Under the pieces are notes generated by a model that made no database searches, was not told where the DNA came from, and was given only the letters and a program-made list of their open reading frames with translations. From assembly GCF_002261265.1 (NCBI RefSeq), contig NZ_NEVK01000001.1:186001-250000 (forward strand): 64,000 nt of DNA. The letters are read 5' to 3'. The position numbers were made by a program, and so were the translations under genes. Shown in pieces: positions 4,352 through 52,546 of the stretch (its first letter is position 1; every line of letters starts with the position of its first letter). The DNA comes from Bordetella genomosp. 7. Its GTDB lineage: Bacteria > Pseudomonadota > Gammaproteobacteria > Burkholderiales > Burkholderiaceae_B.

Positions 4352-4596
4352 GCGCTTTTGCCGGATGCGGGATGGTATGGCGCCGCCGGTGTCTGATTCT
4401 GACGGTGATGGATAGGTGCCGCCGGTGTCTGACTCCGAAGGTGTCAGACACCCTGCGGGAGTCAGACACCTGATGCGCGTTTTTGCCGGATGCGGGATGG
4501 TGTGGCGCCGCCGGTGTCTGATTCTGAAGGTGATGGGTATGGTGCCGCTGGTGTCTGACTCCGAAGGTGTCAGACACCCTGCGGGAGTCAGACACC
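4352..4596. repeat. Array R2a: two ~126-bp tandem units each ending in the 47-bp palindrome
   Basis: Two ~126-bp blocks begin with a shared GCCGGATGCGGGATGGT segment. Each contains a decayed half-site (GGTGTCTGATTCTGA...) and ends in an intact 47-bp nested palindrome at 4424-4470 and 4550-4596. The intact units are identical to each other and are the reverse complement of the array upstream of metX. Spacer sequence is unlike that of the other arrays, indicating in-place duplication after the palindrome arrived. Confidence 0.9.
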
Positions 4597-4698
4597 GGCG
4601 ACCTCTACGGGGTCAGACACCGGCGGCCTTTGCGGGGTCAGGCACCGGCGACTTCTGCGGGAGTCAGGCACCGGCGACTTCTGCGGGAGTCAGGCACC
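4597..4698. repeat. Array R2b: four degenerate 25/26-bp half-units
   Basis: Directly after the intact palindromes are four head-to-tail units at 4597-4621, 4622-4646, 4647-4672 and 4673-4698. Each has the pattern GGCGRCYTYTRCGGG followed by (A)GTCAGRCACC. They look like repeats of only the right arm of the 47-bp unit. The last two carry the GTCAGGCACC variant. They end 34 bp before the gdhA stop codon. Confidence 0.85.
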
Positions 4699-15493: not shown

Positions 15494-17599
15494 ATGTTCG
15501 AGTTCAAGAAAACCGGCCAGCAGCAGAAGCAGCGCTTCAAGCTGCGCGCGTGGGTGGGCGGCCTGTTCGCGCTGGCCTGCTTTGGCGTGCTGGTGGGGCG
15601 TTTCTGGTATTTGCAGGTCGACCGCTACGAGGGCCTGTCCGAACGCGCCGACCGCAATCGCATCGCCGTCGTGCCCATTGCGCCGCGCCGCGGCGAGATC
15701 CTCGACCGTAATGGCCAGGTGCTGGCGCGCAATTACCGCACCTATACCCTTGAGGTGGTGCCGGCCCAGGCCGGAAACATCGATAAGCTGCTCGATCGTC
15801 TGACGCCCATTGTGTATGTCAGCCCCGGCGACCTGCGCCGCTTCAAGCGCCGCGTGGGAGAGTCCAGCCGCTATGCCAGCCTGGTGCTGCGTAACAACCT
15901 CAACGAAACCGAGGCCGCCTGGTTCGCCGCGCACGCCTATGAGTTTCCCGGCGTCGAGTTGCGCGCGCGCTGGGTGCGCGAATACCCCCAGGGCGCCACG
16001 GCCGCGCATGTGGTGGGCTATATAGGCCGTATCGCCGACAACGATCTCGAACAGCTCGAAGAAACCGGCCAACTGGGCAATTATCGGGGCACCGATGTCA
16101 TCGGCAAGAAGGGCATCGAAAAAAGCTGGGAACGCCAGCTGCACGGCCAGACCGGGGTGGAAGAAGTCGAAGTCACCGCCACGGGACGCCCGGTGCGCAC
16201 GCTGCGGCGCACCGACCCCGTGCCGGGCTCGGACATCATGCTGTCCATCGACCTGGACTTGCAACGCATCGCCGAAGAAGCCTTCGGCGACCAGCGGGGC
16301 GCCCTGGTGGCCCTGGACCCCAAGACCGGCGAAGTCCTGGCGTTTGTGTCGCAGCCGTCGTTCGACCCCAACCTGTTCATTGACGGCATTGACGTCGACA
16401 ACTGGCGCATGCTGAACGAATCGCCCGACCATCCGCTGATCAACCGTCCGCTGTACGGCACGTATCCCATCGGCTCGACATACAAGCCGTTCGTGGCCCT
16501 GGCGGCCTTGCAGCTGGGCGTGCGCAGCGCCACCGAGCGCATCTCGGACCCGGGCTACTACGAATTCGGCGGCCAGCGCTTTCGCAATGCGGGGGGCGCG
16601 GCCTATGGCATGACCGACATGCATCGCGCGATCGTCGTGTCGTCGGATACCTACTTCTATTCGCTGGGGCCCGAAATTGGCGTGAATGCCCTGCACGATT
16701 TCTCGAAGCAATTCGGGTTCGGCCAGATCACGGGCATCGACCTCGATGGCGAGCGCGCCGGCGTGCTGCCTTCTACCGAATGGAAGCGCAAGGCCTACAA
16801 GGGCCGTGAACGCCAGCGCTGGTACGCCGGCGAGACGATTTCGGTAGCGGTGGGGCAGGGCTACAACTCGTTCACGTTGCTGCAGCTGGCGCAGGCCACT
16901 TCGACGCTGGCGGACAATGGCGCGTACCGCCGGCCCCACCTGGTGCATGCGGTGCGCGATACCCGCACGGGCGAGATCAAGGTCACACCGTCGGACCCGG
17001 AATATCGCATTCCGCTCGAACAGCGCAACGTCGATATCATCAAGGCCGCCATGGCCGACGTGGTGCGTGCGGGCACCGCGCGGCGCGCTTTTGCCGGCGC
17101 TTCGTACCAATCGGCCGGCAAGACGGGCACGGCGCAGGTGTTCAGCCTGCGCGGCGCGCAATACCGGGCCAGCGAGCTGGACGAGCGCTTGCGCGACCAT
17201 GCACTGTTCATGGGGTTTGCGCCGCTGGAAAACCCGCGCATCGCCGTGGCGCTGCTGGTAGAAAATGCGGGCTGGGGCGCCAGTGTCGCCGCGCCCATTG
17301 CCCGCAAGGTGTTCGATTACTGGCTGGCCAAGACGGCGCCCGCCGCGCCCACGTTGCCCGCGCAGGCGCCGACGGCCGCTGGCGCGGTTGCCGACTCGGC
17401 CTCCGACGCCAGCGCCGAGCCGGCGCCGCGTGCCGAGCCGCGTCCGCCCGCTCCTCCCGCTCCGCGTCCGCGCCCCACGCCTCGCGCACTGGCGCCGGCC
17501 ACGCCGCCGCCCGCGCCGGCTCGCCGCGTTCCGTCAACTGCGCCAGCGTTGTCCGACCTGAGCGAGCTTTTTGAGTCTTCCACGGGAGCCAAGCCATGA
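15494..17599 (+). CDS. mrdA: Penicillin-binding protein 2 (elongation transpeptidase) with Pro/Ala-rich tail
   Basis: 701-residue class B PBP that crosslinks lateral-wall peptidoglycan with RodA. It has an N-terminal membrane anchor (about 22-40), a dimerisation domain starting RGEILDRNGQVLARN, and a transpeptidase domain with Ser328-x-x-Lys331 (GSTYKP), an SSD motif and Lys543-Thr-Gly (GKTGTAQ). ATG at 15494 is preferred over the in-frame GTG at 15488. From about residue 615 an ~86-residue Pro/Ala/Arg-rich tail, absent from E. coli PBP2, precedes the stop. It overlaps rodA by ATGA. Confidence 0.95.
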   Translation: MFEFKKTGQQQKQRFKLRAWVGGLFALACFGVLVGRFWYLQVDRYEGLSERADRNRIAVVPIAPRRGEILDRNGQVLARNYRTYTLEVVPAQAGNIDKLLDRLTPIVYVSPGDLRRFKRRVGESSRYASLVLRNNLNETEAAWFAAHAYEFPGVELRARWVREYPQGATAAHVVGYIGRIADNDLEQLEETGQLGNYRGTDVIGKKGIEKSWERQLHGQTGVEEVEVTATGRPVRTLRRTDPVPGSDIMLSIDLDLQRIAEEAFGDQRGALVALDPKTGEVLAFVSQPSFDPNLFIDGIDVDNWRMLNESPDHPLINRPLYGTYPIGSTYKPFVALAALQLGVRSATERISDPGYYEFGGQRFRNAGGAAYGMTDMHRAIVVSSDTYFYSLGPEIGVNALHDFSKQFGFGQITGIDLDGERAGVLPSTEWKRKAYKGRERQRWYAGETISVAVGQGYNSFTLLQLAQATSTLADNGAYRRPHLVHAVRDTRTGEIKVTPSDPEYRIPLEQRNVDIIKAAMADVVRAGTARRAFAGASYQSAGKTGTAQVFSLRGAQYRASELDERLRDHALFMGFAPLENPRIAVALLVENAGWGASVAAPIARKVFDYWLAKTAPAAPTLPAQAPTAAGAVADSASDASAEPAPRAEPRPPAPPAPRPRPTPRALAPATPPPAPARRVPSTAPALSDLSELFESSTGAKP

Positions 17600-18732
17600 A
17601 ACGCCTGGGCGCGCTGCTGGCTCGGATTTTCCTTGCCTTCGACTGGCCATTGCTGGTCATCCTGGCCCTGTTCGCCGCGCTGGGCCTTACCGTCATGCAT
17701 TCGGCCGTGGGCAGCACCGACTGGCGCTTTGCCGAGCAGTCGCGCAACTTTGCGATTGCCTTTGCGGCGATGTGGGTCGTGGCCCTGGTGCCGCCCAGGC
17801 GCCTGATGCAGCTGGCGCTGCCGTTTTATGTGGTGGGCGTGGTGCTGTTGCTGGGGGTGGAATTTTTCGGCGAAACCAGCAAGGGCGCGACGCGCTGGCT
17901 GGACCTGGGCGTTACGCGCATCCAGCCATCCGAAATGATGAAAATCGCCGTGCCGATGATGCTGGCCTGGTATTTCCAGCGCCACGAAGGCGACGTGCGC
18001 ATCCGCGATTTCCTGGCGGCCGCCGCCATGCTCGCGGCGCCATTCGGCTTGATCGTGTTGCAGCCCGACCTGGGCACGGCATTGTTGGTGTTCGGCGCCG
18101 GGTTCTTCGTGATCTATTTCGCGGGCCTGTCGTTCAAGCTGTTGGTGCCCCTGACGGTGATCGGGGTGGCGGGCATAGGCACGCTGATCTATTACGAAAA
18201 TTCGCTGTGCCAGGCCGGCGTTGACTGGGTGGTATTGCACGAATACCAGAAGCAGCGGGTATGCACGCTGCTCAATCCCAGCTCGGACCCCCTGGGCAAG
18301 GGGTTCCATACCATCCAGTCGATGATCGCGGTGGGGTCGGGCGGTCTGTATGGCAAGGGTTATATGCAGGGCACGCAGACGCACCTGGACTTTATCCCCG
18401 AGCGCACGACCGACTTCATTTTCGCGGTGTACGCGGAAGAGTTCGGGTTGTACGGCGGGGTGGCGATGCTGGTGCTGTACGGGCTGCTGATCGCTCGGGG
18501 CCTGACCATCGCCATGCGCGCTTCGTCCCAGTTCGGCCGCCTGCTGGCCGGGGCGCTGACGATGATGGTGTTCATCTACGTGTTCGTGAATGTGGGCATG
18601 GTAACCGGCATCCTGCCGGTAGTGGGCGTGCCGTTGCCATTCATGAGCTACGGCGGGACGGCGCTGTTCACCATGGGGATTGCCTGCGGGATATTGATGA
18701 GCGTCTCCAGGCATCGGGGGGAGCAGGCGTGA
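17596..18732 (+). CDS. rodA: Peptidoglycan glycosyltransferase RodA (SEDS family)
   Basis: 378-residue polytopic SEDS polymerase that works with PBP2 to extend glycan strands. Visible features: ATRWLDLGVTRIQPSE, the catalytic-region LQPDLGTALL with its conserved Asp, DFIFAVYAEEFG and the C-terminal LPFMSYGGTAL signature. The start overlaps the mrdA stop by ATGA. It is the last gene of the operon; the downstream gap holds large palindromes instead of an obvious simple terminator. Confidence 0.96.
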   Translation: MKRLGALLARIFLAFDWPLLVILALFAALGLTVMHSAVGSTDWRFAEQSRNFAIAFAAMWVVALVPPRRLMQLALPFYVVGVVLLLGVEFFGETSKGATRWLDLGVTRIQPSEMMKIAVPMMLAWYFQRHEGDVRIRDFLAAAAMLAAPFGLIVLQPDLGTALLVFGAGFFVIYFAGLSFKLLVPLTVIGVAGIGTLIYYENSLCQAGVDWVVLHEYQKQRVCTLLNPSSDPLGKGFHTIQSMIAVGSGGLYGKGYMQGTQTHLDFIPERTTDFIFAVYAEEFGLYGGVAMLVLYGLLIARGLTIAMRASSQFGRLLAGALTMMVFIYVFVNVGMVTGILPVVGVPLPFMSYGGTALFTMGIACGILMSVSRHRGEQA

Positions 18733-18768: not shown

Positions 18769-18927
18769 GCCGGCGGGCGGGGACAGGCGGGGGAGCGGCT
18801 TCACGTGGCCGGTCGGCCGCCCCGCGCGGCCGACACCGCTTCGTCAACCTCGTCAGCCTGCGGCTTCCTTCGGTTTCCCTCGCTCGGCCCCGAGGCGCCG
18901 CCCCCCCGCCTGTCCCCGCCCGCCGGC
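18769..18927 (+). repeat. Large palindromic element A (25-bp perfect outer stem)
   Basis: Outer arms 18769-18793 and 18903-18927 are perfect inverted 25-mers (left begins GCCGGCGGGCGGGGACAGG). Inside, a conserved core begins GGCTTCACGTGGCC. It continues with a perfect 8-bp hairpin, GTCGGCCG / CGGCCGAC (18812-18834), closed over the heptamer CCCCGCG. About 60 bp shared with element B then follow, ending GAGGCGCC. The core recurs in reverse orientation in elements B and C, but the outer-arm sequence does not. Function unknown. Confidence 0.85.
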
Positions 18928-19017
18928 TCGCGGTGTCGGTTTGCCACGGTTATTGGCGCCGCCGGTGTGCTTGGCGGTGTTCAGGTCGTCAAGGGGACGG
19001 GAGATGGTAGTGGGCCG

Positions 19018-19050
19018 CCAGGGCAGGCCGCCCTGCGCGGCCTGCCCTGG
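19018..19050 (+). repeat. Small hairpin H1, perfect 13-bp stem, CCCTGCG loop
   Basis: Arms CCAGGGCAGGCCG (19018-19030) and CGGCCTGCCCTGG (19038-19050) pair perfectly around CCCTGCG. The sequence CATTCGGG follows immediately. Three other hairpins in the window share the loop and a similar flank but have different stems (H2 52002, H3 52311, H4 19200). Confidence 0.85.
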
Positions 19051-19199
19051 CATTCGGGGTGGGCTGGCGGGGGGCTTGTTCCGTTGGCGGGTGGCCGGGG
19101 GTAGGGTGGCTGTGCGTAAGCTAGGCCGGATTGGTCTCACCGCGTCTATTGACAGTGCCACCTTACGTACCGCCAATCCTCGCATTCCATCACCCGAAC

Positions 19200-19234
19200 G
19201 CGTCAGGCGTCCGCGCAGGGCGGGCGCTTGACGC
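19200..19234 (-). repeat. Small hairpin H4, 14-bp stem, CCCTGCG loop (minus orientation)
   Basis: Arms 19200-19213 and 19221-19234 pair at 12 of 14 positions plus two G-T pairs, around CGCAGGG (CCCTGCG on the minus strand). On the minus strand GTTCGGG follows the stem, matching the flank of H1 and H2. Its stem sequence is unlike the other hairpins. Confidence 0.75.
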
Positions 19235-19320
19235 GGCCCTGCACTTCTCCCACCCCTCTTGAGCATCAGCCCCGCACGACACGGTTTTTTTTCAGCAACC
19301 TGACCACATTCACCGATGCA

Positions 19321-19481
19321 GCCGGGCGCCGGGGGCGTAGCGGGAGGCGGGCGCCTCGGGGGCGAGCGAGGGAAACCGAAGGAAGCCGCAGGCTGACGAG
19401 GTTGACGACGCGGTGTCGGCCGCGGGGGGCGGCCGACCGGCCCCGTGAAGCCCGCCTCCCGCTACGCCCCCGGCGCCCGGC
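19321..19481 (-). repeat. Large palindromic element B (32-bp perfect outer stem)
   Basis: Outer arms 19321-19352 and 19450-19481 are perfect inverted 32-mers. On the minus strand the interior reads TTCACGGGGCC, then hairpin GTCGGCCG / CGGCCGAC (19415-19437) over CCCCCCG, then a segment almost identical to element A through GAGGCGCC. The outer arms differ from those of elements A and C, so self-complementarity is kept while sequence is not. Confidence 0.85.
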
Positions 19482-19521: not shown

Positions 19522-20094
19522 TCAGAGCAACACCCTCAGATGCTCATCCAGATGCACGGTAGGCGCCACGCGCCATCCGCTTTGGGCGTACCGCAGCCAG
19601 CGTCCCAGCACCAGGTGGGTCAACAGGCTGGCGTGGGCGGTGATGTTGGCATCGGCGGGCAGGTCGCCGTCGCTGACTGCCACGCGCAGAGATTGCTTCA
19701 GCGTGGCCTCGATGCGGTCGTTGATGTGGTTGATGCGTTCCTGCAGCCGGTTGTCTTCCGTGACCAGCGCGTCGCCGGTCAGCACCCGCGTCATGCCCTT
19801 GTTGCGCTCCGAGAATGCCAGCAGCATCGACACCGTCTTGCGCGCCTGGGCCAGGCCCAGCGGTTCGGCCGCGGCAATCTGGTTGATAAGGGTGAACAGG
19901 CTTACCTCGATAAACTCGATCAAGCCTTCGAACATCTGCGCCTTGCTGGCGAAATGCCGGTACAGAGCCGCTTCCGAAACCTGCATGCGGGCGGCCAGCG
20001 CCGCGGTGGTAATGCGTGCCGCATGTGGCTGCTCCAGCATTTCAGCCAAAGTTTGCAGGATCTGGTTTTTGCGTTCGCCGGGTTTGCTCGCCAT
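19522..20094 (-). CDS. slmA: Nucleoid occlusion factor SlmA (TetR family)
   Basis: 190-residue TetR-type DNA-binding protein. The N-terminal helix-turn-helix (ITTAALAARMQVSEAALYRHFASKAQMFEGLIEFIE, split here across residues 28-63) closely follows E. coli SlmA, as does the RVLTGDAL region. SlmA binds chromosomal sites and blocks FtsZ assembly over the nucleoid. Start ATG at 20094. It is downstream of the HAD phosphatase and argB on the same strand, with a 36-bp gap. Confidence 0.9.
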   Translation of the reverse strand: MASKPGERKNQILQTLAEMLEQPHAARITTAALAARMQVSEAALYRHFASKAQMFEGLIEFIEVSLFTLINQIAAAEPLGLAQARKTVSMLLAFSERNKGMTRVLTGDALVTEDNRLQERINHINDRIEATLKQSLRVAVSDGDLPADANITAHASLLTHLVLGRWLRYAQSGWRVAPTVHLDEHLRVLL

Positions 20095-41347: not shown

Positions 41348-41609
41348 GGTGTCTGACACCCTTCGGGAGTCAGACACCGAGCCGTCCAGCGCCGGTCTGG
41401 TCTGCGCCAGGCCGTCGACGCCAGGGTGTCTGACTCCCGAAGGGTGTCAGACACCGCACCGTTCAGCGCCGATCTGGTCTGCGTCAGGCCGTCGACGCCA
41501 GGGTGTCTGACTCCCGAAGGGTGTCAGACACCGCACCGTCCAGCGCCGATCTGGTCTGCGCCAGGCCGTCCGCGCCCGGGTGTCTGACTCCCGAAGGGTG
41601 TCAGACACC
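41348..41609. repeat. Array R3: four 31-bp palindromes, 77-bp period
   Basis: Units at 41348-41378, 41425-41455, 41502-41532 and 41579-41609, each 77 bp apart. Three read GGTGTCTGACTCCCGAAGGG then TGTCAGACACC. The first is the same unit in the opposite orientation. This 31-bp form lacks the CTGCG arm of the 47-bp units. The 46-bp spacers are nearly identical to one another and unlike those of the other arrays. Confidence 0.92.
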
Positions 41610-51949: not shown

Positions 51950-52001
51950 GGAGGGGGCGCGAAGCCCGGCTTCACGGTGCCGTCGGGCGCCCTGTGCGCC
52001 C
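51950..52001 (+). repeat. Truncated palindrome core D
   Basis: GGCTTCACGGTGCC (51969-51982) and a 7-bp hairpin TCGGGCG / CGCCCGG-like over CCCTGTG match the start of the large-element core. The GAGGCGCC end and a complementary right arm are missing. It runs directly into hairpin H2, as if its right half had been replaced. Confidence 0.6.
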
Positions 52002-52038
52002 GGCCCGCCCGCGCCGCCCTGCGCGGCGCGGGCGGGCC
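52002..52038 (+). repeat. Small hairpin H2, perfect 15-bp stem, CCCTGCG loop
   Basis: Arms GGCCCGCCCGCGCCG (52002-52016) and CGGCGCGGGCGGGCC (52024-52038) pair completely around CCCTGCG, followed by ATTCGGG. Same apex and flank as H1, with an unrelated stem. Confidence 0.85.
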
Positions 52039-52079
52039 ATTCGGGCAAGGATTGTGTCGGGGATTTGTATATGCGGGGT

Positions 52080-52237: not shown

Positions 52238-52310
52238 GGGAGCGCATCGGCATATCCATCGATCGGCGCCAGCCACCGGCCCACACGCCATCCCCATCCC
52301 CTATGCGAAT

Positions 52311-52347
52311 GCATTTTCCAGGCCGCGCAGGGCGGCCCGGAAAATGC
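52311..52347 (-). repeat. Small hairpin H3, 15-bp stem, CCCTGCG loop (minus orientation)
   Basis: Arms 52311-52325 and 52333-52347 pair except at one position, around CGCAGGG. Read on the minus strand, the loop is CCCTGCG, the single odd pair is G-T, and CATTCG follows. Its AT-rich outer stem (GCATTTTCC / GGAAAATGC) is quite unlike the GC-only stems of H1 and H2. Confidence 0.8.
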
Positions 52348-52441
52348 GGCCCTGTGCGATTTTCCCTTCCACGCCAATGCGGCGTTCAACATGCAAGAAT
52401 CCGATCCGCCCCGGCGATGCATCATCGGTATTCCACTGCGA

Positions 52442-52546
52442 GTCGTGGGCGGGAGGCGTGGGGCCGCGGCGCCTCGGGGGCGGATCGGGCGCGCGGGGCG
52501 CCCGACGGCCCCGTGAAGCCAAGGCCCCACGCCTCCCGCCCACGAC
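52442..52546 (-). repeat. Large palindromic element C (24-bp perfect outer stem)
   Basis: Arms 52442-52465 and 52523-52546 are perfect inverted 24-mers. On the minus strand the interior reads TTGGCTTCACGGGGCCG, then hairpin TCGGGCG / CGCCCGA (52485-52505) over CCCCGCG, then CCCCCGAGGCGCC. It lacks the ~45-bp insert between apex hairpin and GAGGCGCC found in A and B. Arm sequence differs from A and B. Confidence 0.85.

Follow-up and report, generated by a model that had tools for sequence, protein, structure and literature searches.

How can repeats in one genome share a centre, differ in their outer arms and yet keep those arms perfectly paired? The question is raised by three large palindromic elements, A, B and C, found in a stretch of 64,000 nucleotides of Bordetella genomosp. 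7 (contig NZ_NEVK01000001.1, positions 186,001 to 250,000), referred to below as the window. A preliminary description of this DNA proposed that stem pairing is maintained or recreated separately at each site, either by selection for a fold or by template-switch correction of quasi-palindromes. In this study we compare the elements with their relatives in Bordetella and in other genera of the family, and we ask what keeps the arms paired.

Results

The palindromes form part of a longer unit

The arms of element A (25 bp, 18769-18793/18903-18927), element B (32 bp, 19321-19352/19450-19481) and element C (24 bp, 52442-52465/52523-52546) are perfect inverted repeats, with the same arm lengths as in the preliminary description. 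When the window was scanned for perfect arms of at least 20 bp with a spacer of at most 220, four clusters passed, namely A, B, C and a GGTGTC...GACACC array at 41348-41599, and none was obtained in 20 local shuffles used as controls. The common core that had been described is borne out as well: the core pattern GGCTTCACGKGGCC has three occurrences in the 4.13 Mb genome, the cores of A and B being longer by an extra segment of about 48 nt and that of C representing the short form. The arms had also been said not to match between copies. This is correct for A and B (match of 20 against a shuffled mean of 19.4, with 143 of 300 shuffles as high) and for B and C (19 against 17.8, 90 of 300), which are at the shuffled level, but not for A and C, whose arms match better than shuffled ones (19 against 14.9, 1 of 300). 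RNA folding z-scores are -7.9 and -7.2 for the two strands of A, and -9.4 for one strand of C.

Each of A, B and C is the outer portion of a longer unit, in which the stem described above (stem 1) is accompanied by flanking boxes and by another variable stem that is likewise paired (stem 2). Its order is a box TTCTTCTGGCGTCG, the variable stem 1 with its conserved core, CGACTCGCA, an inter-stem box ending in TGCAGGGCCG, stem 2, and CATTCGG; stem 2 is made of variable arms enclosing the loop GCCCTGCGC. The unit is about 290 bp long, and its stem 1, of roughly 23-32 bp, has a mostly copy-specific sequence. A, on the plus strand, and B, on the minus strand, are the two ends of a single tail-to-tail composite located between a rodA-type and a TetR-type gene. 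The features of the window are as follows.

17596..18732, plus strand: rodA/ftsW-type gene (PF01098, E 2.6e-105); unit A starts just past its stop codon
18769..18793, plus strand: unit A stem 1, 5' arm, 25 bp, perfect
18797..18899, plus strand: unit A conserved core and inner hairpins (GGCTTCACGTGGCC ... GAGGCGCC)
18903..18927, plus strand: unit A stem 1, 3' arm
18928..19011, plus strand: unit A inter-stem segment, its box degenerate here (R1 match 18965-19061, 66.5 bits)
19012..19056, plus strand: unit A stem 2 (GGGCCG-arm-GCCCTGCGC-arm'-CATTCG)
19057..19194, no strand: spacer of the A-B composite, between both stem-2 matches
19195..19239, minus strand: unit B stem 2 (R1 match 19190-19288, 64.3 bits)
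19321..19481, minus strand: unit B stem 1 and core (arms 19450-19481 and 19321-19352, 32 bp, perfect)
19522..20094, minus strand: TetR-family gene (PF22276, PF00440), convergent with the rodA-type gene and followed, past its stop codon, by unit B
52000..52048, plus strand: apparent partner-unit fragment of C, stem 2 part only (partial R1 match, positions 54-100, 37 bits, E 4.9e-8)
52306..52352, minus strand: unit C stem 2 (R1 match 52301-52402, 80.3 bits)
52442..52546, minus strand: unit C stem 1 (24 bp arms) and short core

R1 denotes a model covering stem 2 and its upstream box. Unit C separates two divergent genes, one for a threonine dehydratase and one with a VTT domain. In the segment at 19012-19056 and its relatives, the box that precedes stem 2, GCAGGGC in many units, can by eye pair with the loop of that stem (GCCCTGC), so that the two could form a pseudoknot or another hairpin.

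Against Rfam, the only match in the window is a SAM_alpha riboswitch at 356-435 (39.3 bits, cut-off 36), away from the elements, and the three element loci gave only one sub-threshold miRNA match. Palindromes of the GGTGTCTGACACC type are repeated at 27-298, 4424-4627 and 41348-41609 of the window, and are probably the published Bor or BRE repeats.

The unit belongs to a dispersed family

Relatives were compared via the core, and the sequence outside the arms is also conserved. The idea that the arms are an earlier target palindrome split by an insertion was rejected, since the boxes outside the arms are conserved too. At E of at most 1, R1 has matches in all nine Bordetella genomes, 10 to 79 per genome, with 79 in G002 and 49 in G004. 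On the G002 contigs C1, C3, C4, C10, C11, C15 and C21, R1 matches lie within a few hundred bases of the contig starts, so that contigs seem to be broken in the element and copies may be undercounted. Among the R1 matches listed, many are neighbours in plus-then-minus order, with gaps of 12 bp to a few hundred. Four G002 copies are 90-94% identical across about 670-930 bp while their upstream flanks are unrelated, and each shows a unit, a spacer and a reversed second unit wherever the contig extends far enough.

Within the bacterial family, R1 at E of at most 1e-6 was found in 48 of 268 genomes and 5 of 43 genera. The 13 loci inspected in other genera (of 21 fetched) follow the plan of the Bordetella units with different core sequences, although in two of them, L208 and L225, little of stem 1 is left. 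A scan of the whole collection gave 32 rows, 7 of them from Bordetella, and the remaining 25 are taken as chance. Exact-core matches outside the genus (five genomes) lack the end box, as do three exact-core matches inside it. Individual copies show other rearrangements: stem 1 or the core is cleanly removed in L172 (930-1000), L085 and L208, L172 being left as a bare palindrome, and at L248 (950-2260, from G003) the composite spacer is present about four times in tandem with part of stem 2 in each copy.

Both stems covary

Covariation of stem 2 was measured on 29 units from 42 places (30 distinct ones were inspected, and one from G007, a shorter match, was omitted), which had been collected with a search pattern that fixed the loop and the outer boxes and left the arms free. 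In this set 97.5% of 408 cells are paired and 12 of 15 pairs vary on both sides. The covariation score is 0.747, against 0.154 for shuffled and a maximum of 0.155 for slid alignments, and 127 cells are changed on both sides against 35.7 when shuffled. For stem 1 we used 28 of the 33 short-core units (L003, the plus unit of L004, L067, L145 and L193 were omitted for arm length or register) and counted covariation jointly with the core and apex pairs. Here 94.8% of cells are paired, 22 of 28 pairs of the outer helix vary on both sides, the score is 0.355 against 0.087 shuffled and at most 0.062 slid, and cells changed on both sides number 162 against 42.6. Thus both stems are strongly covarying, above the shuffled and the slid controls, as is expected of a structured RNA.

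These results uphold the proposal that each site keeps or regains its own pairing: the arms of relatives mostly differ and yet pair. Two outcomes had been named that would speak against it, and neither is seen. Complementarity exceeds the shuffled level in both stems, and most copies do not have identical arms, for which reason a simple repeat family sharing its arms was rejected. One genome, G002, does contain groups of copies with near-identical arms, at several sites, as expected from recent spread.

Leftover mismatches favour one strand

The pairs that escape Watson-Crick pairing were counted in stem 1 of 65 units, obtained from 81 rows after removal of sub-hits and repeats (32 with the long core, 33 with the short core). 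Stem 1 is perfect in 22 of them. Read on the unit strand, the 65 stems contain 1612 Watson-Crick pairs, 40 C.A, 12 A.C, 3 T.G, 3 G.T, 17 other combinations and 2 indels. A C.A or A.C on the unit strand is a G-U on the other strand, so that the leftovers of stem 1 amount to 52 G-U against 6 A-C on the strand that lies antisense to the adjacent gene (the antisense strand). Counted by units the ratio is 34 to 3 (p 1.2e-7), with all 37 units from outside G002. For stem 2, 150 of 156 matches could be aligned, which left 131 distinct rows; these have 57 G-U against 8 on the antisense strand, or 52 against 7 by units (p 1.4e-9). Separated by origin, stem 2 gives 21 against 4 in the 67 rows from Bordetella without G002 (18 against 3 by units, p 0.0015) and 32 against 0 in the 41 rows of G002 (30 against 0 by units); the bias is absent from the 23 rows of other genera (4 against 4). 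All these p-values overstate the significance because related copies are not independent, those of G002 least of all. As R1 was trained on the unit strand, it should favour the opposite of the observed bias.

Folding of the RNA points in the same direction: of the 65 units, 61 have the better fold on the antisense strand and 3 on the unit strand, and with the arms alone the counts are 42 and 13, with 10 ties. Against an antisense-strand fold, 26 of 28 units have T.G on the unit strand as the basal pair of their apex hairpin.

Two other explanations were considered and rejected. The first, that the stems lack wobble pairs and hence act as DNA, fails because wobble is present on the other strand. 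The second is a mutational strand bias as the source of the G-U excess. In the unpaired segments of G002 copies the same classes of change are unbiased, with 9:12, 7:15 and 13:12 at three clustering cut-offs, although this control comes from G002 only and the stem-1 bias from other genomes; the inter-stem segments of 11 G002 copies, with 16:11, show no comparable bias either. In addition, the 40:12 ratio of C.A to A.C in stem 1 opposes what deamination of C would produce from its C:G content of 423:965. Since the leftovers are strand-biased towards G-U and unpaired G002 DNA is unbiased, the best reading suggested by these sequences is selection on an RNA fold of the antisense strand, with template-switch copying as a possible help. 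The two routes named at the outset are thus partly separable, the G-U bias pointing to fold selection, which template switching may assist.

Position, gain and loss of the units

The sense of the flanks was judged by a simple codon-position score and an open-frame scan, with no gene finder. By this measure the upstream flank codes in the sense of the unit in 48 of 65 units (42 against 14 among clear calls), and stop codons are commonly found about 20 to 60 nt before stem 1. In a hand count of 19 composites, weak calls included, 10 are convergent, 8 co-oriented and 1 divergent.

Downstream of rodA, G000, G003, G004 and G008 carry units, G005 retains a remnant and G002 has a variant whose core is different; the inspected stretches of G006, G007 and G001 contain no unit. 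Between the rodA arms of G003 and those of G004, the differences are two transversions, both compensated, and one T.G left uncompensated. Two G002 sites were also traced into the eight other genomes. At the first, the downstream gene was within reach in four of the eight, and in G003 and G000 the two genes are separated by a short gap that lacks the element. The second site is a convergent junction, where the downstream gene was again within reach in four of the eight (a short stray match in G008 being excluded); the gap is short and clean in G007, and GGTGTC-type repeats take the place of the element in G003, G005 and G006. As gene pairs are seen without the element at both sites, it has been gained or lost between species.

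Discussion

The account that we favour, and hold with somewhat better than even confidence, is that the units form a dispersed extragenic family, REP/BIME-like, whose antisense RNA must fold, acting presumably as a barrier to read-through or as protection of a 3' end, with template switching as a helper. In Bordetella the leftovers are mostly G-U in the RNA antisense to the adjacent gene, and this RNA would therefore be the molecule that must fold. Boxes and loops would be read by sequence and the stems only by pairing, leaving the stems free to drift. The antisense RNA of a unit would arise mostly when transcription of the far gene continues past its end, and would run through stem 2, the inter-stem stretch and then the very stable stem 1 before entering the neighbouring gene in antisense. 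The fold could stop the transcript, or mark and protect its 3' end, ahead of that gene, and copying of one arm from the other would speed the paired changes.

A barrier or a protected 3' end would explain the position of the units, their pairing and the strand concerned. As to an intrinsic terminator, in which a T-run directly follows the hairpin, the antisense strand of Bordetella units has by eye a T-rich stretch that begins about 10-15 nt after stem 2, and the other genera inspected do not show it. Against a barrier stand unit C, which lies in a divergent gap, the 17 of 65 flanks that have the opposite sense, and the single divergent composite among the 19.

In a bolder version, which is possible but which we regard as doubtful, the composite would be a mobile bidirectional RNA insulator: the inverted units would each act on transcripts from the far gene, the fold would be selected on one strand, and the private stems would be renewed from arm to arm. 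Private stems might then prevent the two ends from annealing to each other as a single long hairpin, a structure that would be destroyed in the cell.

It is rather unlikely that the element is instead a DNA signal, a hairpin or cruciform read by a protein (transposase, recombinase or nucleoid protein) for which the boxes and a paired stem of whatever sequence would be required. Such a signal would agree with the dispersed G002 copies in unrelated flanks, with tail-to-tail pairs that resemble terminal inverted repeats, and with the rarity of G-U on the unit strand (3 of 408 cells in stem 2). However, an orientation-dependent bias is not expected from it unless only one of the strands folds. Also against it, a Y1 transposase (PF01797) was found in six of the nine genomes but not in G002 or G004, the two with the highest numbers of R1 matches, so a RAYT as the mover was rejected for now and a Y1 transposase is not likely to be one. 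No obvious target-site duplication was detected by eye in two copies. Plasmids gave no match to one G002 element. One composite, L205, contains at 1062-2045 an IS110-family transposase (PF01548, PF02371) within a GGTGTC...GACACC palindrome of its spacer; as this gene is inside the spacer repeat, and was seen in one composite only, it was dropped as the element's own transposase. The palindrome is possibly a target preference of that IS110 element.

Mutation alone, in which template switching in quasi-palindromes copies arm to arm with no function and no selection on the fold, appears to us quite unlikely as the whole explanation, though it has its own evidence. Close G002 copies differ by adjacent, fully compensated bases. 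Between nearest neighbours, changes on both sides are at least as often transversions as transitions, with ratios of 33:30 (at most 2 differing pairs) and 92:51 (at most 3) in stem 2, and 8:2 (at most 3) and 20:10 (at most 5) in stem 1, whereas one-sided changes are mostly transitions; in a study of rRNA, 61% of instantaneous compensations are described as of the transition type (PMC8794818). The transversion excess weakly suggests that some paired changes occur in one step, as stem-2 neighbours may include chance likeness. In addition, the base composition of the 5' arm of stem 1 is skewed towards G and T (965 G, 423 C, 214 T, 85 A), an asymmetry that the same work derives from intrastrand switching (PMC8794818), but stem 2 has no such asymmetry. 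Against mutation alone, arm copying by itself does not predict G-U leftovers of 52:6 and 57:8 next to unbiased unpaired DNA in G002, and it leaves the conservation of boxes and loops unexplained.

Dead repeats, that is a decaying MITE-like family with inverted ends alike from recent amplification, would fit the truncated or stem-1-less copies (L085, L079, the minus unit of L067, L084 and the G005 site), but this very improbable explanation is already disfavoured by arms that differ while pairing is kept, even at one locus, rodA, in four species.

Whichever the process, such long, near-perfect and site-specific stems offer a natural test of how paired bases evolve, in which many copies per genome, orthologous sites and an internal unpaired control make RNA selection and template switching separable. 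If folding of the antisense RNA does act as a barrier, the units would represent a widespread, apparently unannotated device at gene ends in Bordetella and several related genera, of relevance for transcript boundaries and antisense transcription.

Relation to known systems

In the open-licence literature we found no description of the present family. The repeat families of Bordetella reported there are the short Bor repeats, BRE, Bor-1 and Bor-2 (PMC1590033, PMC3110155, PMC2267715). The short Bor repeats are likewise intergenic, with a length of 26-30 bp (PMC1590033), and BRE, also intergenic, is described as about 90 bp long, often in tandem and of conserved sequence (PMC3110155), whereas the present units are tail-to-tail and about 290 bp; variable paired stems are not among the features described for either in these reports. 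Bor-2 of B. bronchiseptica is also intergenic and folded and has few copies, 17 of which 6 are full length, at 167 bp (PMC2267715). Bor-2 may be part of the present family.

Template-switch maintenance of RNA hairpins (PMC8794818) likewise concerns perfect stems and changes of both sides in one event. As described, it is a mutation mechanism in RNA genes and not a repeat family, and alone it leaves the strand bias unexplained.

The nearest relatives in habit are REP/BIME elements and tagged REP dimers, palindromes that lie outside genes, in the gaps of co-oriented and convergent gene pairs, and are frequently arranged as inverted pairs (PMC3733652); their pairs are described as often heterodimeric (PMC3733652). 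The present family is likewise dispersed, extragenic and palindromic, located at gene 3' ends and often in inverted pairs. Published REP stems have 5-13 bp in units of 20-40 bp (PMC3733652), in contrast to a unit here of about 290 bp with a variable stem 1 and a second variable stem, so that neither the short unit nor the common stem sequence is found. REPs of the CGTC type have a stem of 8-9 bp and an unpaired tag (PMC3733652), while here CGTC is mostly within the stem. We therefore regard the family as REP/BIME-like in its place and its pairing, but built on long private stems and not on their short common one.
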